A stretch of DNA of 21,513 nt, taken from positions 1 to 21,513 of IMG/VR virus record IMGVR_UViG_3300035204_000266. One strand, 5' to 3'. The notes under the pieces were generated by a model. The model made no database searches, was not told where the DNA came from, and worked only from the letters and a program-made list of their open reading frames with translations. The position numbers and the translations under genes are program-made. Numbering within the stretch: position 1 is the stretch's first letter; every line of letters begins with the position of its first letter. Shown in pieces: positions 8,347 through 21,430 of this stretch. This stretch comes from a virus.

Positions 8347-10298
8347 TAAATCACTCCAACAGCAGCAGTCTCTTCAACTGGCATGGGGGCTTGGGGGGAT
8401 GGTTCCTGCAGCGGAGGTAGCATCTGCTCAGGTGGCATCTGCTCAGGCGGCACAGCCCCCTGCCCAGCAATCTCCTGAGCGAGCATGGCGTTGGCATCTT
8501 CCTCAGCGGGGAGAAGCCCAATGCTCTTCAAATATTCCATGACATCCTTCTGCAACGCTTTCCCATTATTGTTATCAACCTCAATCATCATCTGGAGCAA
8601 CCCGTCCAGTCTGGTTACAACTGCCTTGCCTCCCTGTGGACTAAGCTGCATTCCTGTCTGTCTGGATTCCTCAAGGAAAGCCATGATGACACCTATCCGT
8701 GTCTGGTAATTCAATCCCTGCCTCACCGGAATTATCTGGCCGATCAGCAGTGCGGGGATTGTCCGTTGCTCATCCTCGGCTTCGTCAGTCAACTTCTCGT
8801 TCGGATCACGAACCAACCTCGCAACCAGTGACGGGTCATCCAGCTCAATGATGCTCTTGTCCAACTCAACCTGATCTATCCAAGGCGAGTTCACAAACAA
8901 CTGCTTCCTTTGCACTGCCTTGTTCAGCAACATGGCGCGACTCACCATGTCCATCCCGCCACGAGGCTCAATTTGGTAGTCCTCGTGCAACGCCACCGGA
9001 TCAACATTCAAGTTGTCCTCAAGAAAACGATACTGCAAATCCTTGCTGTCGAACTGCACAAGCACACTCCACGCCTGACGGAATAGATCACCCAATGCTT
9101 GACGGAAAAGACGCAAACGCAAATCCATGTTTTGTTGTGCTTGGGCGTTTATGGATTCAATCTCAGTCGCTGTACGCCTGTCCCTGTCCGCCATGATTCC
9201 ATAGTCGGGAACGGTAACACGCTGTTCAGCAACCGATTGCGTTTGCGCCATCTCCTTGTCGAAGTCCATCGGCACATTGGGCATCTGGACGGGGGCAATC
9301 CCGAAGGGCAAAATCTGCCCCGGATTTAGCCTCAAATTAACAGAGTTCGGCAGATCACGCTCCGCCCGGAAAAGGGGCTTATTAAATAAAGTTGACGAAT
9401 CCTGCCTCTCATTCCACGCCTTCGTTAGCGCAGCTTCAAATGGAGCCAGCATCTCGCACACACCGCGAGGAGAATACCACCCACCATCCGTCACCTCGTA
9501 CCGCGACGAAACGAACGGAGGCATCCCGTGTTCAAACGGAACCGCCATTTTTTTGCGAAGCGGAATTTCGGGGGCTTGGGGAGAAAAACATTCCATCTGC
9601 CAATCCCCATTCTCTTCCCTCGAATAAACCTCCCAGACAATAACCTGCTCCTTGTCGACTGAGTGCGTTAATCCCTCCCGCAACTCACGATTATTCTTGA
9701 GGTCATTAAGCAGCCCGGACTCCTCAATCTTGCCGCCCATGATGCTGTCAGTGGTTGACTTGCTCGTGTCATAAATCCCAGCACGCTTGTAGGACTCAAG
9801 GCTCATTGGCATCACCTGACACAGCCTGTCGGCTGTCTCAACATTCTTCGTCCAAGGCGGGACAATCACATACAGCGGGTCAATCGCCTGAAACTCAACC
9901 TGCTTGCGATCCGGGTTCCAGAAAATCTTTATAACCCCATGACCACCCATCAACATGTGGTCTATCCAGCTCATCACTTCCATTGCGAAGTTGCTCTTCT
10001 CGTGCATCTTATACGAGAACCACTGTTCCGCTGCAGAAGTGTACGCACTCAACTGCGTCCGCATGGGAACAAACGTGGCAACCACATCCAACCCCATCGC
10101 TTGCTGGAAGAAACTCGGCTTGAGCTTGTTGATGGTGGTGTCTATCAGGGGGAAGTGAGCGTCAGCAGCATTTGGCCACGGGCCACCCTTCCGGCGCAGC
10201 CCGTCATTCCGCATCTGATACCATAGCCCTTGGCGCGTCTCCCATCGGGTGCGACTGGAGATGTCGTTGGCTATTAGGTCATAAAGTTTATCGCTCAT
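8346..10298 (-). CDS. Portal protein
   Basis: This 650-residue protein lies between the terminase and scaffold/capsid genes. It opens MSDKLYDLIANDISSRTRWETRQGLWYQMRNDG and contains the portal-like region around residues 80-160 (YTSAAEQWFSYKMHEKSNFAMEVMSWIDHMLMGGHGVIKIFWNPDRKQVEFQAIDPLYVIVPP). A second typical segment further on is GVCEMLAPFEAALTKAWNERQDSSTLFNKPLF. The C-terminus is Pro/Gln/Met-rich (QMPPEQMLPPLQEPSPQAP). A portal forms the dodecameric DNA channel at one capsid vertex and docks the terminase. Size and gene order support the call. The start overlaps the 46-residue gene upstream by ATGA. Confidence 0.88.
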   Translation of the reverse strand: MSDKLYDLIANDISSRTRWETRQGLWYQMRNDGLRRKGGPWPNAADAHFPLIDTTINKLKPSFFQQAMGLDVVATFVPMRTQLSAYTSAAEQWFSYKMHEKSNFAMEVMSWIDHMLMGGHGVIKIFWNPDRKQVEFQAIDPLYVIVPPWTKNVETADRLCQVMPMSLESYKRAGIYDTSKSTTDSIMGGKIEESGLLNDLKNNRELREGLTHSVDKEQVIVWEVYSREENGDWQMECFSPQAPEIPLRKKMAVPFEHGMPPFVSSRYEVTDGGWYSPRGVCEMLAPFEAALTKAWNERQDSSTLFNKPLFRAERDLPNSVNLRLNPGQILPFGIAPVQMPNVPMDFDKEMAQTQSVAEQRVTVPDYGIMADRDRRTATEIESINAQAQQNMDLRLRLFRQALGDLFRQAWSVLVQFDSKDLQYRFLEDNLNVDPVALHEDYQIEPRGGMDMVSRAMLLNKAVQRKQLFVNSPWIDQVELDKSIIELDDPSLVARLVRDPNEKLTDEAEDEQRTIPALLIGQIIPVRQGLNYQTRIGVIMAFLEESRQTGMQLSPQGGKAVVTRLDGLLQMMIEVDNNNGKALQKDVMEYLKSIGLLPAEEDANAMLAQEIAGQGAVPPEQMPPEQMLPPLQEPSPQAPMPVEETAAVGVI

Positions 10299-10435
10299 CT
10301 GCCCCTTCCCCTATCCCGACCACGGAGATCAGGTGCGTGTTCGCCAGCCTTCAGGTCTTCCTTGGTTGGCACAGTAAATCCTTGTGGCGTGACTTCTCCC
10401 GCCTTGGTCTTCGGCTCTTTCTCCTTCTTCGCCAT
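10295..10435 (-). CDS. Small basic protein upstream of the portal, 46 aa
   Basis: A short frame starts at ATG 10435 and encodes MAKKEKEPKTKAGEVTPQG, then FTVPTKEDLKAGEHAPDLRGRDRGRGR. A purine-rich GGGGGGAC ribosome binding site lies 6 nt upstream, its start directly follows the stop of the zinc-ribbon gene, and its stop overlaps the portal start as ATGA. The perfect fit into the gap between two genes makes it likely real despite its size. It is Lys-rich at the N-terminus and Arg-rich at the C-terminus, so it may bind nucleic acid or a virion partner. The function is unknown. Confidence 0.6.
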   Translation of the reverse strand: MAKKEKEPKTKAGEVTPQGFTVPTKEDLKAGEHAPDLRGRDRGRGR

Positions 10436-10717
10436 CTATCTGTCCCCCCACTTGGCATTTTCGCTGGGGTGAGGATGTCTGACTCTCATCCCAGCCCATG
10501 TAATCCGCATCATCGCCTCAGTTTTCATCACAGCATCAATACACTCATCACAGTAAACGTCATCAGTCGCCCAATCTTCAGCCACAGCCGAACCTAATTC
10601 GCCACAAACAGAACACTCCGTCAACCTTGCTTCAGTCGGCCCAATACTCGATTTCGCTAAGGTGTGCTTCACCTCAATATCCCATGAACATCCCCTGCGG
10701 CATTGCGTCCTGCTCAT
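10436..10717 (-). CDS. Small zinc-ribbon protein after the large terminase
   Basis: Up to 93 residues, with two Cys pairs, CSVC and CDEC, spaced about 20 residues apart. This is a likely zinc-binding ribbon. The ATG at 10717 would overlap the large terminase gene by 44 nt and has a poor binding site. A GTG at 10672, just after the terminase stop and with GGGA 7 nt upstream, would give 78 residues and keeps both Cys pairs. I report the longer frame but think the GTG start may be correct. Its function is unknown. Confidence 0.6.
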   Translation of the reverse strand: MSRTQCRRGCSWDIEVKHTLAKSSIGPTEARLTECSVCGELGSAVAEDWATDDVYCDECIDAVMKTEAMMRITWAGMRVRHPHPSENAKWGDR

Positions 10718-12263
10718 AGTCCGCCTGTGCCTCAGAAAAGATGTCGTTAAGTGTGGGACGGGTTAGGGCGTTGAACTGCTCCCAGCTCCCGCCAATTCCG
10801 CCCCCACACGCTATGCAACCCATCACCGCATCCGCACGGTCAGGACTATCAAGTCCTCTGGATCGCATCGCGTCCTTCCTCTCCAAACCCAACTTGCCTG
10901 TCCGGCTAACCTCCGCTCTCCTTGTCACCATCTGCTGGTGTAACGATTGGTCATCCGGCAAAATTATCTCACGCTTCTCAACGGCCCTAGCAGCCGTGTG
11001 CCACATCTCCGCACTCCGGTTCGCATACCGATCATCAAACGGCTTCGCCCCAAAGTTAACACGGTGTATATCGTACCCCGCATCCATCAGGGCATCGCAC
11101 AAAGGCAAACCCAGTCCCCCTTCATCAGCATAAATCTCGTCCTGAGTCAAGTTATGTTTTTTAATTAAATTGATTATCTTGCCGATGGTCGTGTTCGTAT
11201 TCTTCTCACGCCAGCAAACCATCTCCATGATCTTGTTGCCCTGTCGCATGGCAAACACACACTCATCACCGCCAGCAGCAAAGTCAATGAAGGCAACACG
11301 CATCCCAAGCTCCAAGTCCGGCGGGTTCTGCAAACACTCCTCAAGAGCCTTCAGGTTCAGCACCAGACCATCAGCACTGTCATCAACGAACTCACCATAA
11401 ATCATTGACCGCACCAACGGACTGTTCTCACCGTATAACTCTATCTGCGACTCAATCCATTCCTTCGTCAGGTGTGGACAGTCATAAGCCGTAACCGTGT
11501 GGCACTTCCAGAACTTGCGCTTCTTCGTGAACGCCTCGTAAAACTCACCAGCCGCCGCACCCGGACTGCTCATCACCAACAACCGACTCGGCTGACATCT
11601 GGCTATGGCTGTGAAGATGGAATCAGGGACGGTTTTCGCCTCATCAACAATCATCAATAAATTCTCTGTCGGCCCCTGCCTGTGCCAACCCTCAAACTTT
11701 CCGGGGTCATTCGTACTAAACCCAATCGCCCTCGACCCATTCGCATAATGCAACTCGTTACTCGTGATCCTCCATCCCTGCCCTAAACCCCCAACATACT
11801 TTCTCAACGTAGGCCAGAGCTGCCCCTCGACCTGACGCCAAACGCCAGCAGTCGTTACCACCAAGCTATCGGGAAACCTGACCATGTGCCACAGGATCGC
11901 ACTCGCCGCAACCACACTCGTCTTGCCACTGCCGTTCGCAGCCTTTAAGGCAACGCGACTCTCCTTCTCATTCAAGTCCATCAACACTTTGCGTTGCCAA
12001 TCATAAGCCTTTAACTGGATGAAGGTCTTGGGAAAGTTTTCAAGTAGGCTCGCCTCCTCCAGTGCATCGTGATCTTTAGCGATCCGCTCAAGCGCAGCTC
12101 TCGACTTCTTCTCACTTGGGGAAAGGATCAGGGAAGGGGCAGGAGCTTTCTTGACCTTCTTGGTCGGCAACACCACATCAAACTTCCCCTCTTTCGGCTT
12201 GGGGCCAGTTCTCTTGATCTTGGGCTGCTTCTTGAGCAACACCAACTTCTTCTTTGCTGCCAT
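10674..12263 (-). CDS. terL: Terminase large subunit
   Basis: This is a 529-residue DNA packaging motor. The Walker A motif AANGSGKT lies at about residues 108-115 and the Walker B LLMIVDEA at about 202-209, with Asp207-Glu208 as the likely catalytic pair. The SSPG coupling motif is near 232-235. The C-terminal nuclease domain has candidate metal-binding acids at Asp327 (VAFIDFAAGGD), Asp380 (IYADEGG) and in SPDRADAVMG near residue 490. The N-terminus is Lys-rich and probably disordered. The start overlaps the small-subunit stop (TGATG). Length and order fit the family. It cuts and pumps phage DNA through the portal using ATP. Confidence 0.93.
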   Translation of the reverse strand: MAAKKKLVLLKKQPKIKRTGPKPKEGKFDVVLPTKKVKKAPAPSLILSPSEKKSRAALERIAKDHDALEEASLLENFPKTFIQLKAYDWQRKVLMDLNEKESRVALKAANGSGKTSVVAASAILWHMVRFPDSLVVTTAGVWRQVEGQLWPTLRKYVGGLGQGWRITSNELHYANGSRAIGFSTNDPGKFEGWHRQGPTENLLMIVDEAKTVPDSIFTAIARCQPSRLLVMSSPGAAAGEFYEAFTKKRKFWKCHTVTAYDCPHLTKEWIESQIELYGENSPLVRSMIYGEFVDDSADGLVLNLKALEECLQNPPDLELGMRVAFIDFAAGGDECVFAMRQGNKIMEMVCWREKNTNTTIGKIINLIKKHNLTQDEIYADEGGLGLPLCDALMDAGYDIHRVNFGAKPFDDRYANRSAEMWHTAARAVEKREIILPDDQSLHQQMVTRRAEVSRTGKLGLERKDAMRSRGLDSPDRADAVMGCIACGGGIGGSWEQFNALTRPTLNDIFSEAQADYEQDAMPQGMFMGY

Positions 12264-12643
12264 CAGTTGCGAGACTTAACCCGCTCTGGAATCGAAGACA
12301 ACTGCGATAGCAACTCTGGTGAGATAGTGCTTTTTGCGGGCGAAGTGCCGCTTGCCGTCGCCTTCGGACTCCAGTGCGGGAATCTAGACTGGAGAAAAGC
12401 CAATGCCAACTTTCCATCCCGACTATCCATTATCTTCCTCACCAGTGCCTCCTCAGCTTGAGCCTGTGCCGCCAATACCTGCGCATTCAACTTAGGCTTA
12501 TCCTTCCTAAGCCTCTCCATCCTGCGCGGTGATATTCCACAAGCCCCACAAGCTGCCGTCAAACTCAACCCCAACGACAGCTTCTCCAAGAACATCTTCA
12601 AGGTGTCCCCGGTCAAATTCTTCTTAACAGAGATGTCAGCCAT
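12263..12643 (-). CDS. terS: Terminase small subunit
   Basis: From ATG 12643 this gives 126 residues, starting MADISVKKNLTGDTLKMFLEKL. A helix-turn-helix-like segment lies at about residues 24-50 (LGLSLTAACGACGISPRRMERLRKDKP), followed by a helical oligomerisation region and a Ser/Pro-rich tail. Small terminases recognise the packaging site and recruit the large subunit. Size, DNA-binding fold and position support this. No ribosome binding site precedes ATG 12643; the 16-bp palindrome ends only 3 nt upstream of it. A TTG at 12682 would add 13 residues that translate the palindrome, so the true start is uncertain. Confidence 0.8.
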   Translation of the reverse strand: MADISVKKNLTGDTLKMFLEKLSLGLSLTAACGACGISPRRMERLRKDKPKLNAQVLAAQAQAEEALVRKIMDSRDGKLALAFLQSRFPHWSPKATASGTSPAKSTISPELLSQLSSIPERVKSRN

Positions 12644-12646
12644 GTT

Positions 12647-12662
12647 TTTACTGTACAGTAAA
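12647..12662. promoter_or_regulatory. 16-bp palindrome, copy 1 (terminase promoter)
   Basis: This is a perfect TTTACTGTACAGTAAA palindrome, placed between a putative minus-strand -10 and the start codon of the small terminase. A protein bound here would block initiation of the whole late operon. Confidence 0.75.
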
Positions 12663-12664
12663 AC

Positions 12665-12692
12665 AATGTACCTAAAGTTCAAAACTTGTCCA
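12665..12692 (-). promoter_or_regulatory. Putative late promoter for the left arm
   Basis: On the minus strand, TGGACA (12687-12692, five of six bases of the -35 consensus) and TACATT (12665-12670, four of six of the -10) are separated by 16 nt. The 16-bp palindrome begins 2 nt after the -10, so it would cover the transcription start. The transcript leader before ATG 12643 would be very short. Confidence 0.4.
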
Positions 12693-12756
12693 GTTTTTTG
12701 TGGGGGGATGGTTGGTGATCGGCATTCGTGGGGGGTGGTGGCCTGTGGGTGGTATT

Positions 12757-12779
12757 GTACGTATACGTACTATACGTAC
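12757..12779. repeat. TACGTA-rich palindrome and direct repeat
   Basis: GTACGTATACGTAC at 12757-12770 is a perfect 14-bp palindrome. Its right part overlaps a 9-bp tandem repeat, TATACGTAC, at 12762-12770 and 12771-12779. It lies in the middle of the non-coding region between the divergent arms and could be a binding site for a regulator. No factor is known from the sequence. Confidence 0.6.
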
Positions 12780-12895
12780 GCGTATTATCTGGCAAGCATC
12801 ATCACATCGGGATGCGTTGATGAGTTGATGCAAGAGGGAATGAAAATGCCCCCTCTGCTCTTTTACTCCCCACCCCCTTCTCGACAATCCGCCGA

Positions 12896-12967
12896 GCCAC
12901 GCTGGGTACATCCTCAGGTCATTACGGCCACGCTCCGCCACGCTGGCCGAGGCAATCACGGCCACGC
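12896..12967 (+). repeat. Cluster of GCCACGCT direct repeats
   Basis: GCCACGCT occurs at 12896, 12927 and 12937, with a GCCACGC copy at 12961. The first two starts are 31 nt apart and the others lie closer. The region between 12644 and 12988 has no convincing gene on either strand, so the repeats may be protein-binding sites. Confidence 0.45.
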
Positions 12968-12988
12968 ATTGCACGGCCTTGGCCGATC

Positions 12989-13004
12989 TTTACTGTACAG
13001 TAAA
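12989..13004. promoter_or_regulatory. 16-bp palindrome, copy 2 (divergent region)
   Basis: A perfect TTTACTGTACAGTAAA lies in the non-coding region between the arms. The 10-mer CCTTGGCCGA occurs on both sides of it, at 12977-12986 and 13015-13024. A weak plus-strand -35-like TTGCAC (12969-12974) lies 16 nt before TACTGT inside the palindrome. Confidence 0.75.
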
Positions 13005-13079
13005 AACGCCAACGCCTTGGCCGAGTTTGCACCATGAATAAAATTAATGAAAATCCCACAATCCATTAAAACTTTTCAG

Positions 13080-13107
13080 TTGCCCTTTGGTACCAGTATG
13101 GTATCCT
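13080..13107 (+). promoter_or_regulatory. Putative rightward early promoter with extended -10
   Basis: TTGCCC (13080-13085) and TATCCT (13102-13107) are separated by 16 nt, and TG at 13099-13100 makes an extended -10. Transcription would begin near 13114 and give a leader of about 310 nt before the first early gene. The -10 is a moderate match, so confidence is limited. Confidence 0.4.
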
Positions 13108-13113
13108 GACAAT

Positions 13114-13422
13114 AGATTGAGTGAGGGAACGCAGCTAGCCCTCAACAAGTGGAACCGCCACGGCTCAGGTTTAAACCAGCGAGAGCATAACACAGGACCA
13201 AAGCAGGGAAGCCGCAACACGCGCCAGTCATGCGAGTAGTCCGCCAGCCACCGAGCCGATCTCGTGAGGGAAGGGGCTGGCGATCAAATCAAATTTCCGA
13301 GATTCAATTTTTTACTGTTCAGTAAAAGCAAATGTTACTTGGCCGAATTTAACACAGGCCAAGCCACGACCTACCGACCGTCAATAATCGCATCCTAACT
13401 TGTGACATGGCGGGAGGGAATA
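13114..13422 (+). ncRNA. Long structured leader upstream of the first early gene
   Basis: No gene is visible in this stretch. Several inverted repeats occur in order: GAGGG/CCCTC near 13121-13143, a GTGG/CCAC hairpin near 13150, the palindrome GGTTTAAACC near 13170, and CGCCAGCC (13242-13249) with GGCTGGCG (13275-13282). The 16-bp palindrome at 13311 lies in its 3' part, followed by CTTGGCC/GGCCAAG (13338-13344 and 13357-13363). I cannot match it to a known riboswitch. It may be a regulatory leader or a separate small RNA. Confidence 0.35.
13311..13326. promoter_or_regulatory. 16-bp palindrome, copy 3 (before the 280-aa gene)
   Basis: TTTACTGTTCAGTAAA has perfect 7-bp arms and TT at the centre. 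It lies about 96 nt before the start of the first early gene and 28 nt after an 8-bp GC-rich stem. It is followed after 11 nt by CTTGGCCGA, as at copy 2. Confidence 0.75.
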
Positions 13423-14265
13423 GTGGCACTAAAAACAATGAGTGAAACAAAACTAACTAAAGATCAGAAGATTGAACTTCAGAAGACCGAGCTGGGAGTG
13501 AATGCCTTGGCTTTCGACGTTGCGTCAATCGCAACGGCCAAAGCTGAGACCGAGCTTGAAAAGCAACAAAAGCTTTTCGACACCAGTAAGGAAATTGCCA
13601 AGGATGCCCGCAAGGCATCCCGCAAGGCTGAAGGAACCTTCACAGCCTCCATTCGACGTTGTTACAAGACAACTCAGAACGGGGACGTTACCAAGAAAGT
13701 CTGGTTAGAGATAATCGAGACTGAAGCACCTAACCAGAAAGGTACGTTCAATACCGTCTGGTCTGAAGAAGTGGCCAAGGCACGAGCCGTTGCCACTGGT
13801 GAGGTAATCAACCAGACCGAGCAACGCGGCCAAGGCAATAGCGAAGTGAAAGAGTCACTCGCCAGCGCATTGGTTAAACTCGAAGCTGGCGACTCGACTG
13901 AAGCCATGCGTGAAATTAACACGACCATCTTGGCCGCTGTCGATGCAACGTGGGGAAAGGATCAGGAGGGTAATGACCTTCCAAAGTCCATCATGGAAGC
14001 CAAGTCTAGCCTTGAATACTTCGCCATGCTTGGCCGGGTGTTTGCCGCAATCGAAAAGACCAGCCGCGCAATTAGCGTGGGAGCCGCGAAGGTGAGCAAA
14101 AATTCCTTCGAGCTTGCAAACACAACGCCGAAGGCCGAGTTGACCGATGAGGAAAAGGCCGAGATCGCAGCAGTGGCCGCGACCCAAGCCGAAGCCGACA
14201 AAGCCGCCAAGGGCAACGGCCGCAACCGCAAAGCCGCCACGTTGAAAGGTGGCGTCCTTGCGTAA
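13423..14265 (+). CDS. Hypothetical early protein, 280 aa
   Basis: I do not recognise this protein. I choose GTG 13423 (MALKTMSETKLTKDQ) because GGGAGGG stands at the right distance upstream. ATG 13438 is the alternative. It has a charged helical N-terminus (about residues 10-85, possible coiled coil) and a short beta-prone central part (TFTASIRRCYKTTQNGDVTKKVWLEI). A helical segment follows (DLPKSIMEAKSSLEYFAMLGRVFAAIEKTSRAI), and the tail is Ala/Glu/Lys-rich and likely disordered. It is the first gene of the right arm and is followed by a good terminator, so it forms its own transcription unit. An early takeover or nucleic-acid-related role is possible but unsupported. Confidence 0.8.
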   Translation: MALKTMSETKLTKDQKIELQKTELGVNALAFDVASIATAKAETELEKQQKLFDTSKEIAKDARKASRKAEGTFTASIRRCYKTTQNGDVTKKVWLEIIETEAPNQKGTFNTVWSEEVAKARAVATGEVINQTEQRGQGNSEVKESLASALVKLEAGDSTEAMREINTTILAAVDATWGKDQEGNDLPKSIMEAKSSLEYFAMLGRVFAAIEKTSRAISVGAAKVSKNSFELANTTPKAELTDEEKAEIAAVAATQAEADKAAKGNGRNRKAATLKGGVLA

Positions 14266-14285
14266 GCCAACCAAGTAACATTGCA

Positions 14286-14315
14286 CCCAGTCCGCGCAGG
14301 CGGGCTGGGGTTTTT
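14286..14315 (+). terminator. Intrinsic terminator after the 280-aa gene
   Basis: CCCAGTCCGC (14286-14295) pairs with GCGGGCTGGG (14300-14309), with one G-U pair, around a 4-nt loop. One G and five T follow (14311-14315). The T run merges into the palindrome at 14313. Confidence 0.85.
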
Positions 14316-14328
14316 ACTGAACAGTAAA
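14313..14328. promoter_or_regulatory. 16-bp palindrome, copy 4 (fused to a terminator)
   Basis: TTTACTGAACAGTAAA, with AA at the centre, begins 3 nt after the terminator stem and shares its T run. The GTG start of the next gene lies 36 nt downstream. Confidence 0.75.
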
Positions 14329-14363
14329 AGCCAAACGACAAACCCAAAAGAAAAGGAAACAAA

Positions 14364-14579
14364 GTGAAAAACATATCCAACATAATAGCAGAAATCCTAA
14401 CGGCGGAGGGTGCGCACATTGCGTCCCATGTCACGACATTGAAGGGTGATTTGCCAGACGGCAAACGACTAACCTTAAAGATTGAAGACCCGACATGCGA
14501 CCTATTCGGCCAGCCACGCAAGGCCGAGTACGGACTGAAGAAAAAGGAATTAATGCGAGCAGCACGCAAGGTAAAATAG
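14364..14579 (+). CDS. Hypothetical small basic early protein, 71 aa
   Basis: The gene starts at GTG 14364 behind AAAAGGAAAC, the standard binding site of this arm, and encodes MKNISNIIAEILTAEGAHIASHVTTLKGDL, ending KKKELMRAARKVK. The C-terminus is strongly basic and the middle is beta-prone (GKRLTLKIEDPTC). I do not recognise a family. It lies between two intrinsic terminators, so it is a single-gene unit directly controlled by palindrome copy 4. Small basic early proteins are often DNA-binding or host-takeover factors, which remains a guess here. Confidence 0.75.
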   Translation: MKNISNIIAEILTAEGAHIASHVTTLKGDLPDGKRLTLKIEDPTCDLFGQPRKAEYGLKKKELMRAARKVK

Positions 14580-14585
14580 ACCCAC

Positions 14586-14616
14586 GATCCACCCGCAAGG
14601 GTGGGTCTTTTTTTTT
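14586..14616 (+). terminator. Intrinsic terminator after the 71-aa gene
   Basis: GATCCACCC (14586-14594) pairs with GGGTGGGTC (14599-14607), with one G-U pair, around a GCAA tetraloop. Nine T follow (14608-14616). This is a textbook Rho-independent terminator. Confidence 0.92.
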
Positions 14617-14641
14617 GCCCAGATTTTCTGGGCATCCAGAA

Positions 14642-14757
14642 CCCTGTTATGATGCCCTGTTATAATGCCCTGTTATGATGCCCTGTTATAATGCCCTGTT
14701 ATAATCCGGCAATCCCAACCCCTGTTACAAACGGACGTTATCCACCCTGTTATAATC
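14642..14757 (+). repeat. 13-bp repeat array with DnaA-like box, possible origin
   Basis: Five head-to-tail copies of CCCTGTTATRATG run from 14642 to 14706, with the last ending in C instead of G. Two further partial copies lie at 14720 (CCCTGTTAC) and 14745 (CCCTGTTATAATC). Four copies contain TGTTATAAT, a perfect extended -10, and two contain TATGAT. TTATCCACC at 14738-14746 differs by one base from the DnaA box TTATCCACA. Iteron-like repeats with a DnaA box in a gene-free region suggest a replication origin. An array of promoter -10 elements is the alternative. Confidence 0.7.
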
Positions 14758-14786
14758 TTACCACGTTCTATAGACTTACAATTAAG

Positions 14787-14815
14787 TTGACATAGCGTAC
14801 ATAATCTGGTACACT
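14787..14815 (+). promoter_or_regulatory. Strong sigma70-type promoter with extended -10
   Basis: A perfect TTGACA -35 (14787-14792), a 17-nt spacer and TACACT as -10 (14810-14815), preceded by TG at 14807-14808. Transcription would start near 14822 and read into a gene-free stretch. It is the best promoter in the window by eye. Confidence 0.7.
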
Positions 14816-14986
14816 ATAGGCTCTTGGATGAGATAGTGTTCATTGACAACTCGACATCAGGCTGACAGGAAACTGTCAGGGCAGCGCAGCCCGTAGCCTT
14901 GGTGATACGGCTCTACCGAGTGGCGGGTAGGCGGGAAATTCTGTATACAGGCAATATATTATATGCCCCCGATAGAACAGAGTGCC

Positions 14987-15002
14987 TTTACTGTACAGTA
15001 AA
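14987..15002. promoter_or_regulatory. 16-bp palindrome, copy 5 (inside the possible ncRNA)
   Basis: A perfect TTTACTGTACAGTAAA, 19 nt after a small AT-rich hairpin and about 165 nt downstream of the putative start of the RNA. No gene start follows within 200 nt. Confidence 0.75.
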
Positions 15003-15100
15003 GTTGGCAGCACTCAACGGCGCAGCATACAGTGGCGCACAACAACATAGATAAGGGATGCTTCTAGGGTTGATGAGTGTGGATAGCAATACACTATAAT

Positions 15101-15129
15101 CGCCTCAGGTTTCGATCTGAGGCGTTTTT
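15101..15129 (+). terminator. Intrinsic terminator before the 141-aa gene
   Basis: CGCCTCAG (15101-15108) pairs perfectly with CTGAGGCG (15117-15124) around an 8-nt loop, and five T follow. TATAAT at 15095-15100 lies immediately before it but has no well-spaced -35. Confidence 0.88.
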
Positions 15130-15184
15130 ACTTTCAGGTAGGGTCAGACCTACCAAGTGTCCAACTAACAACAACAACAAGGTC

Positions 15185-15200
15185 TTTACTGAACAGTAAA
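15185..15200. promoter_or_regulatory. 16-bp palindrome, copy 6 (before the 141-aa gene)
   Basis: TTTACTGAACAGTAAA with flanking GTC and GAC extends the symmetry to 22 bp. The ribosome binding site of the next gene starts 4 nt later. A 6-bp inverted repeat, GGTAGG/CCTACC, lies at 15137-15154. Confidence 0.78.
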
Positions 15201-15220
15201 GACAGAAAGGAAACAGTGCC

Positions 15221-15646
15221 ATGAGTAAGAGAATAGATACAGTGCTAGTAAGTGATCGTGCTGATTACTTCGTACAATACCTGATCCAATTGGGTGAGGC
15301 TATTAACAACCTCAACGATAAGGTTGAGGAACTTCAGAAGGCTAACGACGGACTGACTGAGACTGGCGTTGAGCGGATAGTGCATGAGGCTATGGATAAC
15401 CATGACTTCGATGGCATTTTCTATGACCACAACCTAGCTACCGAGAGTTATGTGGATGATGTTCACAGTGAACTCGATGAGAAGATCAGTGAGACTGTTC
15501 ACGAGAATGACCTGAACAATCAGGTTAAGGGCAGTCTGTTTGATCTCCTGTTAAAGATGGCTGAATCAGTTGAGCCTGAACTGTGGAGAATCAGGGAAGG
15601 TAAGAGGAAAGAGTTGGTCAGCAAGACTGAGGAGGTATCAGAATGA
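15221..15646 (+). CDS. Hypothetical coiled-coil early protein, 141 aa
   Basis: The gene starts at ATG 15221 (MSKRIDTVLVSDRADYFVQYLIQLGEAINNLNDKVEELQKANDG) behind AGAAAGGA. The first 45 residues contain heptad-like hydrophobic spacing suggesting a coiled coil. The whole protein is acidic and helical, with a basic patch near the end (RIREGKRKELVSK). I do not recognise a family. Its stop overlaps the start of the cell wall hydrolase gene by ATGA, so the two are co-translated. This suggests a link to lysis or simply shared early expression. Palindrome copy 6 lies just upstream. Confidence 0.78.
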   Translation: MSKRIDTVLVSDRADYFVQYLIQLGEAINNLNDKVEELQKANDGLTETGVERIVHEAMDNHDFDGIFYDHNLATESYVDDVHSELDEKISETVHENDLNNQVKGSLFDLLLKMAESVEPELWRIREGKRKELVSKTEEVSE

Positions 15647-16122
15647 AAGGAATAATACTAACACTAATGATGGCAATGAGTGTACACGGCTGGGAACCAG
15701 TCGAGTCACCCATTGGAAATGACCGAGCAATCGTCGCTGCTGTGATAATCGCAGAAGCTGGCGGTGAATCCAAACGCGGGATGTGTGCAGTCTATGAGGT
15801 TATACACACTCGCGCTTCACACAGGGGAACAAGTTGTGTTACCGAAGTTATGCGACGCAAGCAGTTCTCTTGTCTCAACAACACCAGTCCTGAGAAGCTG
15901 GTAAGAAGGTGTCGTACACATAAGCATTACAAGTGGGTGCATGATGAACTGTTAAAGTTTGTCCCACTCACCATGTTTACTGTACAGGAAAACACACAGA
16001 AACTGAATCGGAACAGGGCTGACCACTACTATGCTCATAAGAAGATACCCAAACCATACTGGGTTGGGGCTTTGGAGGGTAAAGTTGTGGGTAATCACAA
16101 GTTCTATAAGCTAACCAGATAG
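15643..16122 (+). CDS. Cell wall hydrolase, SleB/CwlJ (Hydrolase_2) type; likely endolysin
   Basis: This 159-residue protein opens with a probable signal peptide or anchor (MKGIILTLMMAMSVHG). The hydrolase domain follows: AAVIIAEAGGESKRGMCAVYEVIHTRA, with Glu39 in AEAGGE as the likely catalytic acid, then RRKQFSCLNN. It ends ADHYYAHKKIPKPYWVGALEGKVVGNHKFYKL, the usual end of the family. These enzymes cleave peptidoglycan glycan strands. Four Cys in the mature part could form disulfides after export. A secreted endolysin that does not need a holin for release would explain why it lies far from the holin-like genes. A 15/16 copy of the palindrome lies inside the gene at 15975. Confidence 0.83.
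   Translation: MKGIILTLMMAMSVHGWEPVESPIGNDRAIVAAVIIAEAGGESKRGMCAVYEVIHTRASHRGTSCVTEVMRRKQFSCLNNTSPEKLVRRCRTHKHYKWVHDELLKFVPLTMFTVQENTQKLNRNRADHYYAHKKIPKPYWVGALEGKVVGNHKFYKLTR
15975..15990. promoter_or_regulatory. Degenerate palindrome copy inside the hydrolase gene
   Basis: TTTACTGTACAGGAAA differs from the consensus at one position (G for T in the right arm). It encodes part of MFTVQEN. It may be a weak binding site or chance. Confidence 0.35.
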
Positions 16123-16123
16123 A

Positions 16124-16192
16124 AGCGTAACCTCGTAACTTGCCCTGTTATATGGGGCTAAACTGAAAACCTAAGCGTAACCTAAGCGTAAC
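16124..16192 (+). repeat. AGCGTAACC direct repeats
   Basis: An 11-bp tandem repeat CTAAGCGTAAC lies at 16171-16181 and 16182-16192, and a related AGCGTAACC at 16124. A single CCCTGTTAT, the core of the 14642 array, lies between them at 16143. The stretch is a 104-nt gap between the hydrolase and the next gene. Confidence 0.6.
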
Positions 16193-16226
16193 GCATGGTT
16201 GTGCATAACTAACTGAAAGGAATACA

Positions 16227-16439
16227 ATGAAAACATATCATAGAATAATGAGCTGGTGTTGGTGGAAACTGTGGCGATTGTGGCACAACCACAATCACCC
16301 TCCCATAGAAGGCTACAAGGTTTATAGGCTGGGATGTGGCCCGTCGGACGGCGGCGATGGCGATTATGATAACTGGCAATGTCGCCTATGTGACTGGCTT
16401 GAGAAGCAAGACCGTTACCATCAAAGCTTCTTTCGATGA
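16227..16439 (+). CDS. Hypothetical Trp-rich small protein, 70 aa
   Basis: The gene starts at ATG 16227 behind CTGAAAGGAATACA, a binding site form repeated before other genes of this arm. The product, MKTYHRIMSWCWWKLWRLWHNHNHPP and on, has a Trp/His-rich N-terminus and a CRLC pair near the end (NWQCRLCDWLEKQDRYHQSFFR). His and Cys residues may bind a metal. The family is unknown to me. Confidence 0.65.
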   Translation: MKTYHRIMSWCWWKLWRLWHNHNHPPIEGYKVYRLGCGPSDGGDGDYDNWQCRLCDWLEKQDRYHQSFFR

Positions 16440-16623
16440 ATCGTCAATCCAATAGACACCTCTCCTTAAACCCAACAACCCCAGTTATTGGGTCATTGGG
16501 GATTGGATAAGTGGATTATGATTTGTCTTATAGAATATCAGACGGAACTTATCAGGCTGCTGGACGTATGCCTTGTCTGTAAAGTCAGATTATATACTCT
16601 TATAAGATTATGTCAAGTATGAA
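16440..16623. other. Gene-free AT-rich stretch
   Basis: No convincing gene is seen between the Trp-rich protein and the hairpin at 16624. A 7-bp inverted repeat, ATCCAAT (16447-16453) with ATTGGAT (16502-16508), encloses CCCAA/TTGGG repeats and may fold. The AT-rich part at 16585-16615 contains -10-like sequences such as TATACT after TTGTCT, but spacing is poor, so I do not call a promoter. Confidence 0.4.
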
Positions 16624-16700
16624 TTGTTCACGTCTACTGAGGTGACACTCATGATCTACACACCATGCAGGTCATGAGTGTCATTCGTGTCTGTGAACAA
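16624..16700 (+). promoter_or_regulatory. Large two-part inverted repeat before palindrome copy 7
   Basis: A perfect 12-bp stem, TGACACTCATGA (16643-16654) with TCATGAGTGTCA (16672-16683), has a 17-nt loop. It is enclosed by a perfect 8-bp stem, TTGTTCAC (16624-16631) with GTGAACAA (16693-16700). The structure ends 1 nt before the 16-bp palindrome. It has no T run of its own beyond the TTT that begins the palindrome. Confidence 0.75.
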
Positions 16701-16701
16701 G

Positions 16702-16717
16702 TTTACTGTACAGTAAA
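16702..16717. promoter_or_regulatory. 16-bp palindrome, copy 7 (before the zinc-ribbon genes)
   Basis: A perfect TTTACTGTACAGTAAA, 1 nt after a large inverted repeat. The downstream sequence GAGAAGGGTT leads to ATG 16733 and closely resembles the GAGAAAGGTT after copy 8. Confidence 0.78.
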
Positions 16718-16732
16718 GAGAAGGGTTAAGCA

Positions 16733-16984
16733 ATGAAAATGGGATTAAGAACAAGTCGGGTGTGCCAGCAGAGGCCAGCGCATAGGCTCCTGCACATCTG
16801 CCCAAACTGTGGAGAGAATATCCACAAGGTTGATGGGAAGACTGTGCATGACCTAGACAGGTGTGCGCTAACCAGAGCCAACAAGAAGGAGCTTACCGAG
16901 GGTGAGTTCGTCAAGGTGCTGAGGGCGCATGACCCTATGCACGAACTGAAGTTAATCAAGAAGAAGAAGAAAGGAATACAATGA
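16733..16984 (+). CDS. Small zinc-ribbon protein, 83 aa
   Basis: This begins MKMGLRTSRVCQQRPAHRLLHICPNCGENIHKVDGKTVHDLDRC. The CPNCG motif with upstream and downstream Cys and His residues suggests a zinc ribbon at about residues 11-44. The C-terminus is basic (KLIKKKKKGIQ). It is the first gene after palindrome copy 7 and overlaps the next start by ATGA. It probably binds nucleic acid or protein; the function is unknown. Confidence 0.72.
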   Translation: MKMGLRTSRVCQQRPAHRLLHICPNCGENIHKVDGKTVHDLDRCALTRANKKELTEGEFVKVLRAHDPMHELKLIKKKKKGIQ

Positions 16985-17190
16985 AGAAATGTGTGATATG
17001 CAAGCAAGACATAAAGCCTAACGCCATTGGCTGGGAACATGGCAACAACGCTCAACCAGTAGCAGAAGGGCAATGCTGTGATGAGTGCAATATCAGAGTG
17101 GTTGTCCCTGCCAGACTGCAGAAGCATTACGCTGGGATGACCATAAGCGAAGCGATGGAACTATCAGCCCAACTGAAAGGAATAGAGTGA
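16981..17190 (+). CDS. Small zinc-binding phage protein, 69 aa
   Basis: This opens MKKCVICKQDIKPNAIGWEHGNNAQPVAEGQCCDECNIRVVVPARL. Two Cys pairs (CVIC and CDEC) and the GNNAQPV.EG.CCD.CN...V.PARL pattern match a small protein family that I have seen in phages of several hosts. No biochemical role is known to me. The start lies behind GAAAGGAATACA and overlaps the previous stop. Its own stop overlaps a GTG start of the next gene. Confidence 0.8.
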   Translation: MKKCVICKQDIKPNAIGWEHGNNAQPVAEGQCCDECNIRVVVPARLQKHYAGMTISEAMELSAQLKGIE

Positions 17191-17396
17191 ACCCACAAAG
17201 CACATACCCACAAGATGATCGTGAGGACTTCCGAGAGTGGAAGGAACGTGACCTATACTACGAGGCTCAACATCCCTCAAATTATTACCTATACCACGAG
17301 GCCAGCATCGACAAACCAAGAGAAAGGAAAGACAATGGAAAAATACAAGATAGTCAGACACTACTACGACCCATGGAGGAGGAGCAGGACGATTGA
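17187..17396 (+). CDS. Hypothetical small acidic protein from a GTG start, 69 aa
   Basis: GTG 17187 overlaps the preceding stop as GTGA and has GAAAGGAATA just upstream, the standard binding site of this arm. The frame reads MNPQSTYPQDDREDFREWKERDLYYEAQHP and ends LRPMEEEQDD. The product is charged and Tyr-rich. Its last 62 nt overlap the well-supported gene that starts at 17335 in another frame, which lowers confidence. Confidence 0.5.
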   Translation: MNPQSTYPQDDREDFREWKERDLYYEAQHPSNYYLYHEASIDKPRERKDNGKIQDSQTLLRPMEEEQDD

Positions 17397-17532
17397 GTCC
17401 GGACTTACACTGGAACAGGTGCAAGCCCACTGTGGCGACCCTGAAACCAGCAGCAGCACTTGTGTGACAGCCAAGCGCAAGGCGTACACCCGTAAGGTGG
17501 GCGAATGGTTCGATGGCTATACAGCAGAATAA
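17335..17532 (+). CDS. Conserved small phage protein, 65 aa
   Basis: I place the start at ATG 17335 (MEKYKIVRHYYDPWRRSRTIESGLTLEQVQAHCGDPETSSSTC) because AGAAAGGAAAG stands just upstream. The pattern of a short YKIVR.Y strand, an R-RTI.-GLTLEQ.QAHC segment and a DPETSS motif is frequent in a small phage protein of unknown function. The C-terminus is WFDGYTAE. The function is unknown; its recurrence suggests a conserved early role. Confidence 0.8.
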   Translation: MEKYKIVRHYYDPWRRSRTIESGLTLEQVQAHCGDPETSSSTCVTAKRKAYTRKVGEWFDGYTAE

Positions 17533-17556
17533 CACTAACAAAAGAAAGGAAAGACA

Positions 17557-18216
17557 ATGAAAGTGAAAGGATCAGCTATCTTCTATGAGAATAGCAGGAT
17601 GAGGGCTGTTATCACTGGTCTGGATAGACCGTCTGATAACATCAAGACAGGCAGAATGGGTCAAACATTCATGCTCAAGAAGCAATACCCTGCCCGTGAC
17701 GTGAAGGGTGCTGGGTGTAATGGGTGTCCAGTATGGGAGGAATGCTACGTCAACTGGAGCCAAGCTCCCGCTGCTGTACACCGTACCGCTGAGGCAGACA
17801 GATATGCCTTTATGGGGGCTGAGGAGAGGGAGAGGCTATCTGACATAGCCTTACGCATCGGATCGGCTGGAGAGCCAACCTCAGTCCCTTACGGGGTATG
17901 GAAGAAACTGCTTAAACTATCCCCAAACTGGACAGGTTATACCCACAAGTGGAGACTGCCCAAGTTCCAGAACTTTAAGGAGTTCTGCATGGCAAGCGTA
18001 CACTCGGTGGAGGAGGCGCGTGAGGCACAGGCTATGGGCTGGCGTACGTTCAGGGCTGGCGGCATGGATGAGCCAGCGAAAGGTGAGATAGAATGCCCAA
18101 ACTCCACCAAGGGAATCCAATGTGCCGACTGTACCCTATGCAAAGGGTCAGCTATCAAGGCCAAATCAATCTACATCAAGGGTCACGGCCCTTGGTGGAA
18201 GAAGACAAGGGATTAA
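17557..18216 (+). CDS. Conserved Cys-rich phage protein, 219 aa
   Basis: The start at ATG 17557 follows AGAAAGGAAAGACA. The N-terminal part has the pattern ITGL...S.N.KTG.M.QT, then GAGCNGCPVWEECYVN at about residues 52-67. That arrangement, a Cys cluster ending in CYVN followed by AP.AV, is one I recall from an uncharacterised protein family of phages. A second Cys cluster lies near the C-terminus (ECPNSTKGIQCADCTLCKGS). Together about eight Cys could bind zinc or an iron-sulfur cluster. I cannot assign an enzyme activity. Confidence 0.75.
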   Translation: MKVKGSAIFYENSRMRAVITGLDRPSDNIKTGRMGQTFMLKKQYPARDVKGAGCNGCPVWEECYVNWSQAPAAVHRTAEADRYAFMGAEERERLSDIALRIGSAGEPTSVPYGVWKKLLKLSPNWTGYTHKWRLPKFQNFKEFCMASVHSVEEAREAQAMGWRTFRAGGMDEPAKGEIECPNSTKGIQCADCTLCKGSAIKAKSIYIKGHGPWWKKTRD

Positions 18217-18254
18217 TACCCCCCAATTAAATCCCTAGACAGAAAGGATAAGTT

Positions 18255-18509
18255 ATGTACTTAAAAGCGAGGAAGAACACACGCAGGTTCTACTACCATT
18301 ACCACAAAGCCGAGTCAAAGAGACAAGGCAGAAACGTGCTAACCGTACACTGGGGTGGTAAATGCCACCCAGTTAACGACATCGTGTGCCTTACCGAGTG
18401 TGAGACACACACCCAGAAGCATCAGCCTCGGTGTGTGCTGCGGGGTTGGGCAACTGAAGTCAACTTCAAGAAGGTTAAGGGCAGCATTGTTGCCGTTATC
18501 TGCAAGTGA
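18255..18509 (+). CDS. Hypothetical His/Cys-rich protein, 84 aa
   Basis: The start at ATG 18255 lies behind AGAAAGGATAAG. The product, MYLKARKNTRRFYYHYHKAESKRQGRNVLTVHWGGKCHPVNDIVC and on, contains a His/Cys-rich middle (CLTECETHTQKHQPRC) that may bind a metal. It has a basic N-terminus and ends VKGSIVAVICK. I do not recognise a family. Confidence 0.7.
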   Translation: MYLKARKNTRRFYYHYHKAESKRQGRNVLTVHWGGKCHPVNDIVCLTECETHTQKHQPRCVLRGWATEVNFKKVKGSIVAVICK

Positions 18510-18520
18510 AAGGATAAGAT

Positions 18521-18706
18521 ATGGGCAGAACTAAAGATCAATACATAGAATACTTAACCACTCTCGATCAGGATGATCCCCAGAACAGGGAGATTCAGGA
18601 TCGGAAACCAGACAACAACCAATCTAGGATTTTAAGAAATAATCTTAACCACCTAGACAAACCAACAAGAAAGGACAGTAATGTCATTGATGATAGACAG
18701 CAGTAA
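18521..18706 (+). CDS. Hypothetical polar small protein, 61 aa
   Basis: The start at ATG 18521 lies behind GAAAGGATAAGAT. The sequence MGRTKDQYIEYLTTLDQDDPQNREIQDRKP and on is very polar, rich in Asp, Asn and Gln, and probably disordered. It overlaps the next gene by 26 nt in another frame. The good ribosome binding site is the main support. Confidence 0.55.
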   Translation: MGRTKDQYIEYLTTLDQDDPQNREIQDRKPDNNQSRILRNNLNHLDKPTRKDSNVIDDRQQ

Positions 18707-19520
18707 GTCTGACTATGTGAGCATGGACTACCTAGCCACACGTGAGGCTCGTAATAAAACCAACACACACGTTGCAGTGCCGCATCACTGGTTCGTGGAG
18801 AACATTAAGAAACCCTTGGATGACAGGAAGATTCCGTATGAAAACCTACAGATAGCCCTGTCCAAGGATGAAGAAACCATGTTCGGTACGCTGGAACTAC
18901 CGGAAGTGTGTGTCCCCACAGTGGACGCACAGTACGAGTTGTTCCGCCGGACAAAGCTGAGTCCCAGAGACAGGCACAGCCTGTTAGTGAGGCTCGCGAA
19001 GCGTGGAGCGTTACCATCATCGCAGCTCATCAAGGTTGAGGAGGAGTACCTCAGGGATGATGAGGATGTGTTACGGGATGAACACTCCCGTAAACATAAC
19101 GTGTGGCGTCTGCTTCAAGCCTTCACGGAGAAGCAGAAGACTGGAGGCGGGTTCAGAGGCACTCAATCCAGACTTGACTCAATGGCTAGGAGGACAACCG
19201 AGGCAACTCGACTGTTCCTCAACCATTGTGATCCTGATGGAACCAAGGTCAAGGAGGTGATGGAGCAACCGCTACTGCTTAATGAGCAGAACAGCCTGTC
19301 CCAGTCCTACAAGTATATGCTGGGATTCAGGCACGGCAACCGGCTCAACATGAGTGCGGGTGTGGTGCTTGGGGTCACGGTCATGGTGTGCGATAACCTC
19401 TGCTTCAGTGGTGAGATCGAGGTGAGGCGCAGACACACAGTACACGCCATGCGCGACCTGCCGCTGATGATCGAGAACAGCATCGACAAACTGCTACAGG
19501 GAGGTATAGTAGCGGGATGA
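18681..19520 (+). CDS. DUF932-like phage protein, 279 aa
   Basis: The start at ATG 18681 lies behind AAGAAAGGACAGTA. The N-terminus reads MSLMIDSSKSDYVSMDYLATREARNKTNTHVAVPHHWFVENIKKPLDD. The C-terminal third (YKYMLGFRHGNRLNMSAGVVLGVTVMVCDNLCFSGEIEVRRRHTVHAMRDLPLMI) matches the pattern of DUF932-type phage and plasmid proteins, where a VCDNL.FSG strand is followed by a R+HT motif. Their molecular function is not settled. I infer a DNA-metabolism context because the next genes include recombination proteins. It overlaps the next start by ATGA. Confidence 0.72.
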   Translation: MSLMIDSSKSDYVSMDYLATREARNKTNTHVAVPHHWFVENIKKPLDDRKIPYENLQIALSKDEETMFGTLELPEVCVPTVDAQYELFRRTKLSPRDRHSLLVRLAKRGALPSSQLIKVEEEYLRDDEDVLRDEHSRKHNVWRLLQAFTEKQKTGGGFRGTQSRLDSMARRTTEATRLFLNHCDPDGTKVKEVMEQPLLLNEQNSLSQSYKYMLGFRHGNRLNMSAGVVLGVTVMVCDNLCFSGEIEVRRRHTVHAMRDLPLMIENSIDKLLQGGIVAG

Positions 19521-19831
19521 CCACATACAGGAAAAGCAAGTGGGGGCCACAAATCCTCTTGGAAAAGGTAGGCTCCGTTGAGTTTTGGGAAACAATCCCA
19601 AAATACAATCACTACGGTGGGGTGCGTCGTCAGGTTGGAGAGACATTCCAGCTTGACGGCGTGACCTACACTGTTATGGAGGTCACTCCCTCCGCAGCTT
19701 TGTGCAAGCAAACCGCTGCGAAGATCGTCAAATACATAGCAGACGATGGAGAGGAGAAGGAACGTAAAGTGTGGGGGAGCAGCACCATTCGTGTTGCTCC
19801 TTATCGCGAAAGGAACCAGAAAGTTGACTGA
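19517..19831 (+). CDS. Hypothetical protein, 104 aa
   Basis: The start overlaps the preceding stop as ATGA. The sequence MTTYRKSKWGPQILLEKVGSVEFWETIPKYNHYGGVRRQVGETFQLDGVTYTVMEV is beta-rich, with a small-domain look (VGETFQLDGVTYTVMEVTPSAALCKQ). The tail is basic (WGSSTIRVAPYRERNQKVD). I do not recognise a family. It belongs to the same operon as the DUF932-like gene. Confidence 0.72.
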   Translation: MTTYRKSKWGPQILLEKVGSVEFWETIPKYNHYGGVRRQVGETFQLDGVTYTVMEVTPSAALCKQTAAKIVKYIADDGEEKERKVWGSSTIRVAPYRERNQKVD

Positions 19832-20042
19832 AGAGGAGGAAAGCGCAAGAGACTTCTGCGAGGAACTGCGCTCGCTGGTTGACGTTCATGAGGTGAGGGG
19901 GTGTACACGTAGGCGTATGGGTCAAGCACTCATGGGCTGTGGCATGTCCAGCCTGAACGAATCAACAGATGATAAGGAGAAGGTCAAGGCTATGGCTAGA
20001 GAAATGGTCAAGGTTTGGTCTGAAATCATCGACGAAGATTAG
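19824..20042 (+). CDS. Hypothetical helical protein from a TTG start, 72 aa
   Basis: I choose TTG 19824 (MTEEEESARDFCEELRSLVDVHEVRGCTRRRMGQALMGCGMSS) because it overlaps the preceding stop by a few bases and has GAAAGGA upstream. An in-frame ATG at 19746 would overlap the neighbour by 86 nt. The product is helical, with an acidic N-terminus, a basic RRRMGQALMGCGMS centre and an acidic C-terminal helix (KVKAMAREMVKVWSEIIDED). The family is unknown. Confidence 0.6.
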   Translation: MTEEEESARDFCEELRSLVDVHEVRGCTRRRMGQALMGCGMSSLNESTDDKEKVKAMAREMVKVWSEIIDED

Positions 20043-20070
20043 TGCGGTTGAGTTAGGGCCGCGCTGACAC

Positions 20071-20110
20071 GGCGGGGCCGGGGACTTATCCTTTCTTCCT
20101 CGGCTCCGCC
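20071..20110 (+). terminator. Stable hairpin directly before palindrome copy 8
   Basis: GGCGGGGCCGGGGA (20071-20084) pairs with TCCTCGGCTCCGCC (20097-20110) over 14 contiguous base pairs, two of them G-U, around a 12-nt loop. C and TTT follow, the TTT being the start of the palindrome. This is a probable terminator of the upstream operon with a short T tract, or a fold that acts with the palindrome. Confidence 0.6.
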
Positions 20111-20111
20111 C

Positions 20112-20127
20112 TTTACTGTACAGTAAA
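20112..20127. promoter_or_regulatory. 16-bp palindrome, copy 8 (before the RHH-type gene)
   Basis: A perfect TTTACTGTACAGTAAA, 1 nt after the hairpin. A GAGAAAGG ribosome binding site follows directly and leads to ATG 20142. Confidence 0.78.
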
Positions 20128-20141
20128 GAGAAAGGTTGACT

Positions 20142-20216
20142 ATGTACCCCAAATGTATCATACTTGATGCTTATGGAGGACGAGTCATTAGGAGATACAA
20201 CCGCTGTTATATCTAA
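20142..20216 (+). CDS. Possible 24-aa leader peptide
   Basis: ATG 20142 has an excellent binding site (GAGAAAGG, 6 nt spacing) and reads MYPKCIILDAYGGRVIRRYN before RCYI and a stop. It overlaps the following gene, whose own starts lack a binding site, so its translation may deliver ribosomes to that gene. A short peptide that is only a leader is the simplest reading. Confidence 0.4.
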   Translation: MYPKCIILDAYGGRVIRRYNRCYI

Positions 20217-20379: not shown

Positions 20380-20382
20380 TCT

Positions 20383-20446
20383 GGAGGGGTTGCATTGCTT
20401 CTCTTGGGCATCCACAGCCCATACCTCCTTGCGATGTAATCCCTCC
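20383..20446 (+). terminator. Nested RNA fold filling the gap before the nuclease gene
   Basis: GGAGGGGTTGCATTGC (20383-20398) pairs with GCGATGTAATCCCTCC (20431-20446) over 16 contiguous pairs, three of them G-U. An inner TGGGC (20405-20409) with GCCCA (20417-20421) hairpin lies in the loop. TTTT follows. It may terminate transcription or control the nuclease gene, whose ATG 20457 lies 10 nt later and lacks a ribosome binding site. Confidence 0.6.
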
Positions 20447-20456
20447 TTTTAATTAA

Positions 20457-21324: not shown

Positions 21325-21329
21325 TACTT

Positions 21330-21414: not shown

Positions 21415-21430
21415 TTAACTAAGGAGAATT

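Follow-up and report, generated by a model that had tools for sequence, protein, structure and literature searches.

The question raised by this locus is what is made from a stretch of about 300 nucleotides that holds no useful reading frame yet is enclosed by a strong promoter and a terminator. The stretch lies in 21,513 nt of viral DNA, from a phage genome recovered in environmental DNA (hereafter, the window; IMG/VR record IMGVR_UViG_3300035204_000266), and an earlier note, made from the sequence alone, read it as a small RNA gene that could serve as a replication primer or a regulatory RNA. The explanation favored here, to which we give a probability of about one half, is a gene for a noncoding RNA that also serves as the 5' leader of an early plus-strand operon and carries an operator for a putative phage regulator. 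The RNA gene part of this reading is well supported; the mode of control by the leader is what we infer. The features of the locus and its surroundings are collected in Table 1.

Table 1. Features of the RNA locus and the adjacent genes, by position in the window
Feature	Position	Strand	Basis or remark
Counterpart of the RNA palindrome, 5' of the hypervariable gene	13311..13326	.	equivalents in relatives
Hypervariable gene, predicted all-helical protein	13402..14265	+	between two palindrome copies
Short direct repeats CCCTGTTATRAT	14642..14759	+	repeat family D3
Sigma-70 promoter TTGACA-17-TACACT, extended -10 (TGG)	14787..14815	+	promoter scans; kept in L006
Untranslated structured RNA, ~308 nt	14822..15129	+	start inferred from promoter, end from terminator
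boxA-like box GTTCATTGACA	14838..14848	+	near inferred start; 9/11 to GYTCTTTAANA (PMC5725501)
Predicted three-way junction	14852..14909	+	P1 ATCAGGCT/AGCCTTGGTGAT, P2 CTGACAG-GAAA-CTGTCAG, P3 GGGC-AGCGCA-GCCC
Helix GAGTGCC..GGCAGCACTC, palindrome as cap	14979..15018	+	predicted fold
Palindrome TTTACTGTACAGTAAA inside the RNA	14987..15002	.	one of 8 exact window copies; identical in L006
Intrinsic terminator: 10-bp stem, TTCG loop, T5	15101..15129	+	terminator scan; kept in L006
Palindrome copy just 5' of the first early-operon gene	15185..15200	.	motif scan
First gene 3' of the RNA, 141 aa	15221..15646	+	no family match; 85% aa identity in L006
Cell-wall hydrolase (Hydrolase_2 / endolysin)	15643..16122	+	family match

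The promoter is found where the earlier note had placed it, with the hexamers at 14787-14792 and 14810-14815, a 17-nt spacer and TGG at the spacer end, and in a stricter scan it is the sole plus-strand site scoring at least 11 in the 21.5-kb window. A simple scan of positions 10000-21513 gives 22 promoter-like sites, compared with 10.9 ± 3.7 in shuffled sequences, and at about twice the shuffled rate, a single site taken alone is weak evidence. The structural elements that had been noticed downstream are also in place: the predicted fold contains the stems with the GAAA tetraloop (14869-14872), and the hairpin-rich stretch ends in a clean terminator (CGCCTCAGGTTTCGATCTGAGGCG at 15101-15124, followed by TTTTTA), with 10 pairs and a T run, which is conserved in L006, the closest relative. 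The segment 14822-15130 has a minimum free energy of -100.1 kcal/mol (z = -2.6), a value that was equally low in 1 of 100 shuffles. The absence of an open frame of useful length is borne out as well, the longest plus-strand frame wholly within the RNA being one of 51 aa with a TTG start that is lost in L006 through a 20-nt indel; a conserved open frame in relatives, named in the earlier note as the finding that would speak against an RNA gene, was looked for and not found, L006 being the relative that covers the region.

The RNA resembles no known family in the searches performed. The Rfam 15 covariance models gave no match at the gathering score in the window, L058 or L071, and at a permissive E-value, no leader match above chance in the window stretch, L016, L006 or the L031 leader. 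ARAGORN detected no tRNA or tmRNA, and a DNA similarity search of 14700-15220 against 50,697 named phages returned no match. A type III toxin-antitoxin system (ToxIN-like) was considered and rejected, given that the repeats lie upstream of the promoter rather than inside the RNA and that the protein encoded downstream, where a ToxN-like endoribonuclease would be expected, matches no family.

L006, a single contig that covers the whole region, was found by a search with the downstream protein, and its comparison with the window sets the RNA apart from the DNA ahead of it. The RNA is 93.8% identical between the two, the three genes 90.1%, 91.0% and 88.5%, and the stretch 3' of the terminator 94.2%, whereas the region of the upstream repeats and the promoter is only 55% identical. 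Within this diverged region, the L006 promoter (TTGACA-17-TATGAT with TGC) keeps the -35 hexamer, the spacing and the TGn despite a different spacer sequence. Because the promoter and the terminator are kept while the spacer and the repeats drift, the pattern amounts to more than chance. In the consensus fold of the window and L006, none of the 84 pairs is broken, five changes affect one side of a pair and none affects both sides, the consensus energy is below that of all 60 column shuffles, and the GNRA loop changes from GAAA to GCAA. As judged from these comparisons, the promoter and the folded untranslated RNA are maintained by selection; the window RNA is conserved and probably folded, on grounds other than covariation. 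In L006, the small terminase gene (2393-2809) is apparently frameshifted, possibly through a sequencing error.

Further relatives were collected by searches with the large terminase, an early gene and the small terminase. Among named phages, the terminase of this family is nearest to those of Akkermansia phages (34-38% identity), and neither the terminase nor the small terminase found a match in 84,980 genomes of bacteria and archaea, which leaves the phage without a host or prophage context. The layout common to the family consists of the small terminase, a hypervariable gene, a strong promoter, an untranslated leader of ~100-700 nt and an early or lysis operon. The leader locus is present in 11 contigs besides the window (L006, L016, L010, L058, L071, L109, L057, L031, L086, L088 and L101), in these ~1.3-2.4 kb beyond the start of the small terminase, and the relatives' promoter is TTGACA/TTGACT-17/18-TANNNT, mostly with TGn. 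Not every member of the family has the module: L013/L014 and L023, with terminases 80-94% identical, show no such promoter and leader. A survey of intrinsic terminators, the type that can be read from sequence as Rho-dependent termination cannot, found a clear one between the leader and the operon only in the window and L006 (L016, L010 and L031 were scanned, the others inspected by eye); in L057, this interval holds a hairpin followed by a few T residues. The pattern AGGAGATGCGCTRRAGR has 22 matches in viral contigs, the only relatives among them being the contigs L058, L071 and L010.

Directly upstream of the window promoter are the CCCTGTTATRAT repeats, four at 13-bp spacing and others dispersed, which are possible candidates for iterons or activator sites. 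A different repeat, TATATGGGCGGC, occupies the equivalent place in L016, L010 and L058. One copy of TATATGGGCGGC or a variant is also seen inside the RNA, just 3' of the boxA-like box, in the leaders of L016, L058, L071 and L109.

Covariation is strong in one group of leaders, those of L058, L071 and L109, which are alike and differ mostly in ways that preserve pairing. Their alignment by sequence only contains 7 compensatory pairs, 3 of these in the palindrome, where column shuffles average 0.9, and has a consensus energy of -106 compared with -66 ± 6. A covariance model built on the junction region of these three recovers L016 (E 5.5e-9) and L010 (2e-4). In the alignment derived from the model, which is fitted to structure and hence leans towards it, 15 of the 24 pairs are altered on both sides and the covariation score is 0.546, compared with 0.250 ± 0.042 in shuffles, collapsing when the partners are slid by 1-3 columns; the same helices are backed by the sequence-only alignment. 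The window RNA is not detected by the model (3.7 bits), so one RNA family including the window is not claimed. What the window and the relatives share is position, promoter, box and palindrome design, which does not amount to common descent of the whole RNA. By eye, a three-way junction of similar topology can be made out in the window RNA and in the relatives' leaders, an observation that is a lead only. Another leader type is represented by L031, L086 and L088; in L031, the tip of one hairpin is extended by an insertion of 150 nt. Since the RNAs that relatives carry at this locus fold differently, the picture is that of a fast-evolving control leader for the early genes and not of an empty gap.

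The best lead to the mechanism appears to be the boxA-like box. A TCTTTGACAT- or TTCATTGACA-like box is found in 10 of the 12 leaders, ~15-24 nt after the inferred start and usually after a small hairpin, and in both the window and L006, the order is promoter, boxA-like box, terminator, early genes. Of the boxA references used for comparison, only the consensus that served for scoring, GYTCTTTAANA, is taken from a publication (PMC5725501), and it is matched at 9 of 11 positions in the window, 10 in L086 and 8 in both L058 and L071; for L109, the highest score falls outside the start-proximal box. Over seven leader groups, two of which (L101 and L057) are without a box, the combined p of the match is a modest ~0.01. 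The 10-mer TCTTTGACAT, identified de novo, occurs with at most 2 mismatches in 5 of the 7 groups, compared with 0 of 100 shuffles; under two other k-mer settings, the box was equaled in 3 and 11 of 100 shuffles.

The palindrome inside the RNA is shared with other units of the genome, as the earlier note had it. The motif, TTTACTGWWCAGTAAA, is found at eight places in the window as exact copies and once with one mismatch, where 0.23 matches would be expected by chance allowing 3 mismatches, and L006 has 5 exact and 3 one-mismatch copies (0.1-0.2 expected by chance across the window and L006). The one-mismatch copy at 15976, within the hydrolase gene, is a coding coincidence, since L016, whose own palindrome differs, has it too. 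Repressor operators and stoperators are characterized by a single motif in many copies that lie largely outside genes, and this is the distribution found. The palindrome cores vary between phages and recur within each genome (TACTGTACAGTA, TTGTAGCTACAA, TACTGCGCAGTA and TGTTCGCGAACA, as well as the further phage-specific cores TTACCGCGGTAA, TGTTAGCTAACA, CACAAATTTGTG and CAAACGATACCGTTTG). The leader palindrome recurs upstream of the hypervariable gene in L016, L010, L071, L109, L101 and L031/L086/L088, and, with variants, in L058; L057 has palindromes elsewhere and none within its short leader. This is the pattern to be expected if each phage had a single regulator acting at these sites and the specificity of the regulator shifted. 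In L071, two palindrome sets are apparent (1376, 3070 and 1950, 3417), AGTGTTCGCGAACACT-like at some sites and AAGTTACCGCGGTAACTT flanking the hypervariable gene. Beyond the contigs listed above, the viral contig L051 has ~30 sites within 2 mismatches of TTTACTGNNCAGTAAA.

The hypervariable protein is 44% identical between the window and L006, compared with 85-95% for its neighbors, and 22-44% identical in most phage pairs, compared with 75-95% for neighboring proteins; it has a lysine-rich tail in most phages. AlphaFold models of this protein (pLDDT 48 for the window, 71 for L016) gave no fold match, the best E being 0.22, and with models of such poor to moderate quality, we do not name it as the regulator of the palindromes. 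On the other side of the leader, L016 and L010 have the cell-wall hydrolase gene directly 3' of it. Two more untranslated stretches are seen in the window. That at 13090-13401 is long, with a possible promoter (TTGCCC-16-TATCCT), the palindrome at 13311 and a fold z of only -1.2, and its equivalents in L058 and L071 carry GTTCTTTGAAAT and GATCTTTGAAAA, which are close to boxA. The noncoding stretch at 16440-16717 is conserved, alignable with L010 and L006, and has a palindrome at its end and a minus-strand promoter at 16616-16589 that matches the consensus at 12 of 12 positions.

Taken together, the position, the promoter, the box, the terminator and the early genes downstream point to a leader that chooses between an early stop and read-through, the short RNA being the terminated product. 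RNA polymerase would start near 14822, the boxA-like site would be transcribed soon afterwards and the RNA would fold. In the default state, transcription would stop at 15101-15129 with the release of the ~308-nt RNA, and in the alternative state, brought about by Nus-type antitermination or another trigger, it would continue past the terminator to the hydrolase and recombination genes; the antitermination step would require a putative phage or host factor. The palindrome would be the site of a putative regulator that also binds the copies ahead of other genes, and when bound within the leader, this regulator would block elongation in a stoperator-like manner. A more far-reaching version, which we consider doubtful, is a swappable control module in which the leader RNA bears the identity palindrome of the genome, the fold, the embedded operator and the hypervariable gene co-evolve as an immunity or exclusion system, and the regulator acts on elongation through the leader. 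If the leader mechanism is true, the window offers compact constructs for testing the timing of early genes in uncultured phages, and the palindromes predict which related phages have a common regulator.

The choice between a leader and an RNA acting on its own turns on where the transcript ends. Only the window and L006 have an intrinsic terminator at the end of the RNA, no clear one being seen ahead of the operon elsewhere, and for this reason the RNA is read as a cis-acting leader, which is likelier than a trans-acting small RNA or a primer. A stand-alone RNA of 308 nt that pairs with host or phage messages or binds a protein, read-through being incidental, would fit the high conservation of the RNA and its own strong promoter and clean terminator in these two genomes, and there is a precedent in phage ICP1 and its satellites, where noncoding RNAs are the most abundant transcripts and one of them opens the lysis cluster (PMC7567579). 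We nevertheless consider it unlikely: most of the relatives' leaders directly precede the operon without a clear intrinsic terminator at the 3' end and apparently run into it, and among the 25 longest inverted repeats of 12500-21513, those that touch the RNA are the palindrome arms, which leaves room for shorter complementarity. For an antisense immunity RNA of the P4/P1/N15 type, which would be complementary to the leaders of its targets, this listing gives no candidate among its long repeats other than these arms. What survives of the small RNA gene proposed initially is a noncoding transcript gene with a promoter, a terminator and a conserved fold; as a general picture, the stand-alone small RNA is unsupported.

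The case for a replication primer is circumstantial, resting on the adjoining repeats and the nearby turn of the GC skew. Here the repeats would be iterons, the promoter would activate an origin and the transcript would be processed into a primer, in line with the location of the repeats directly upstream of the promoter, the other repeats at the same place in relatives and the exchange of the module between relatives, which is common for replication modules. This is rather improbable, considering that the repeats are nearly lost where the promoter and the leader stay (L057 and L031 retain only one or a few poor copies), that the skew changes sign where transcription also turns and that no initiator protein is recognized adjoining the locus. 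Less probable again is a code at the RNA level, with the palindrome acting as a transcript hairpin, to be recognized by matching hairpins in other messages or by a protein that binds RNA, and not as a DNA operator. In most members the transcript does include the palindrome, which in the window sits on top of a helix, and in L058, L071 and L109 it changes symmetrically within an otherwise conserved leader, but a DNA site for a dimer predicts symmetric change equally well, palindrome copies precede genes on both strands, and perfect symmetry allows only a 4-nt loop. Finally, leftover intergenic DNA with a promoter and a terminator that arose by chance, for which the doubled rate of such sites in simple scans of the region could be invoked, is scarcely credible in the face of the conservation pattern, the fold energy and the recurrence in twelve contigs.

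Among known systems, the arrangement of the cis-acting leader proposed here is reminiscent of lambda PR/PL - nut (boxA, boxB) - tR1/tL1, where a strong promoter, a boxA-like site, a terminator and early genes follow each other; it differs in that the boxA match of the window is modest, the folded RNA is much longer and most of the relatives lack a clear intrinsic terminator. The put RNA antiterminators of HK022, compared by description, are likewise cis-acting folded leader RNAs of early phage transcripts; they are two-hairpin elements much shorter than the window RNA and need no phage protein to act. The rrn leader, which is bound by NusB/S10, also has a small hairpin and then a GYTCTTTAANA-like box near the transcript start (PMC5725501), but the phage leader precedes early genes instead of rRNA and its box deviates at 1-3 positions. 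In cluster A mycobacteriophages (L5, Bxb1), stoperators are present in many copies per genome, mostly away from promoters, and the motif differs between related phages (PMC6550527); the palindromes described here are similarly multicopy and differ in sequence between related phages, although they are 16-20 bp long and have a putative regulator, whereas stoperators are oriented sites of 13 bp. GOLLD, ROOL and OLE are large, ornate folded noncoding RNAs of unknown role, of which GOLLD and ROOL are phage-borne (PMC12286853, PMC7567579). Compared with these, the leaders at this locus have no Rfam match, span 100-700 nt, are highly variable between relatives and are placed as operon leaders. As far as sequence can tell, they are undescribed structured phage RNAs, one group of which covaries strongly, at a fixed locus adjoining a fast-changing gene and operator pair.
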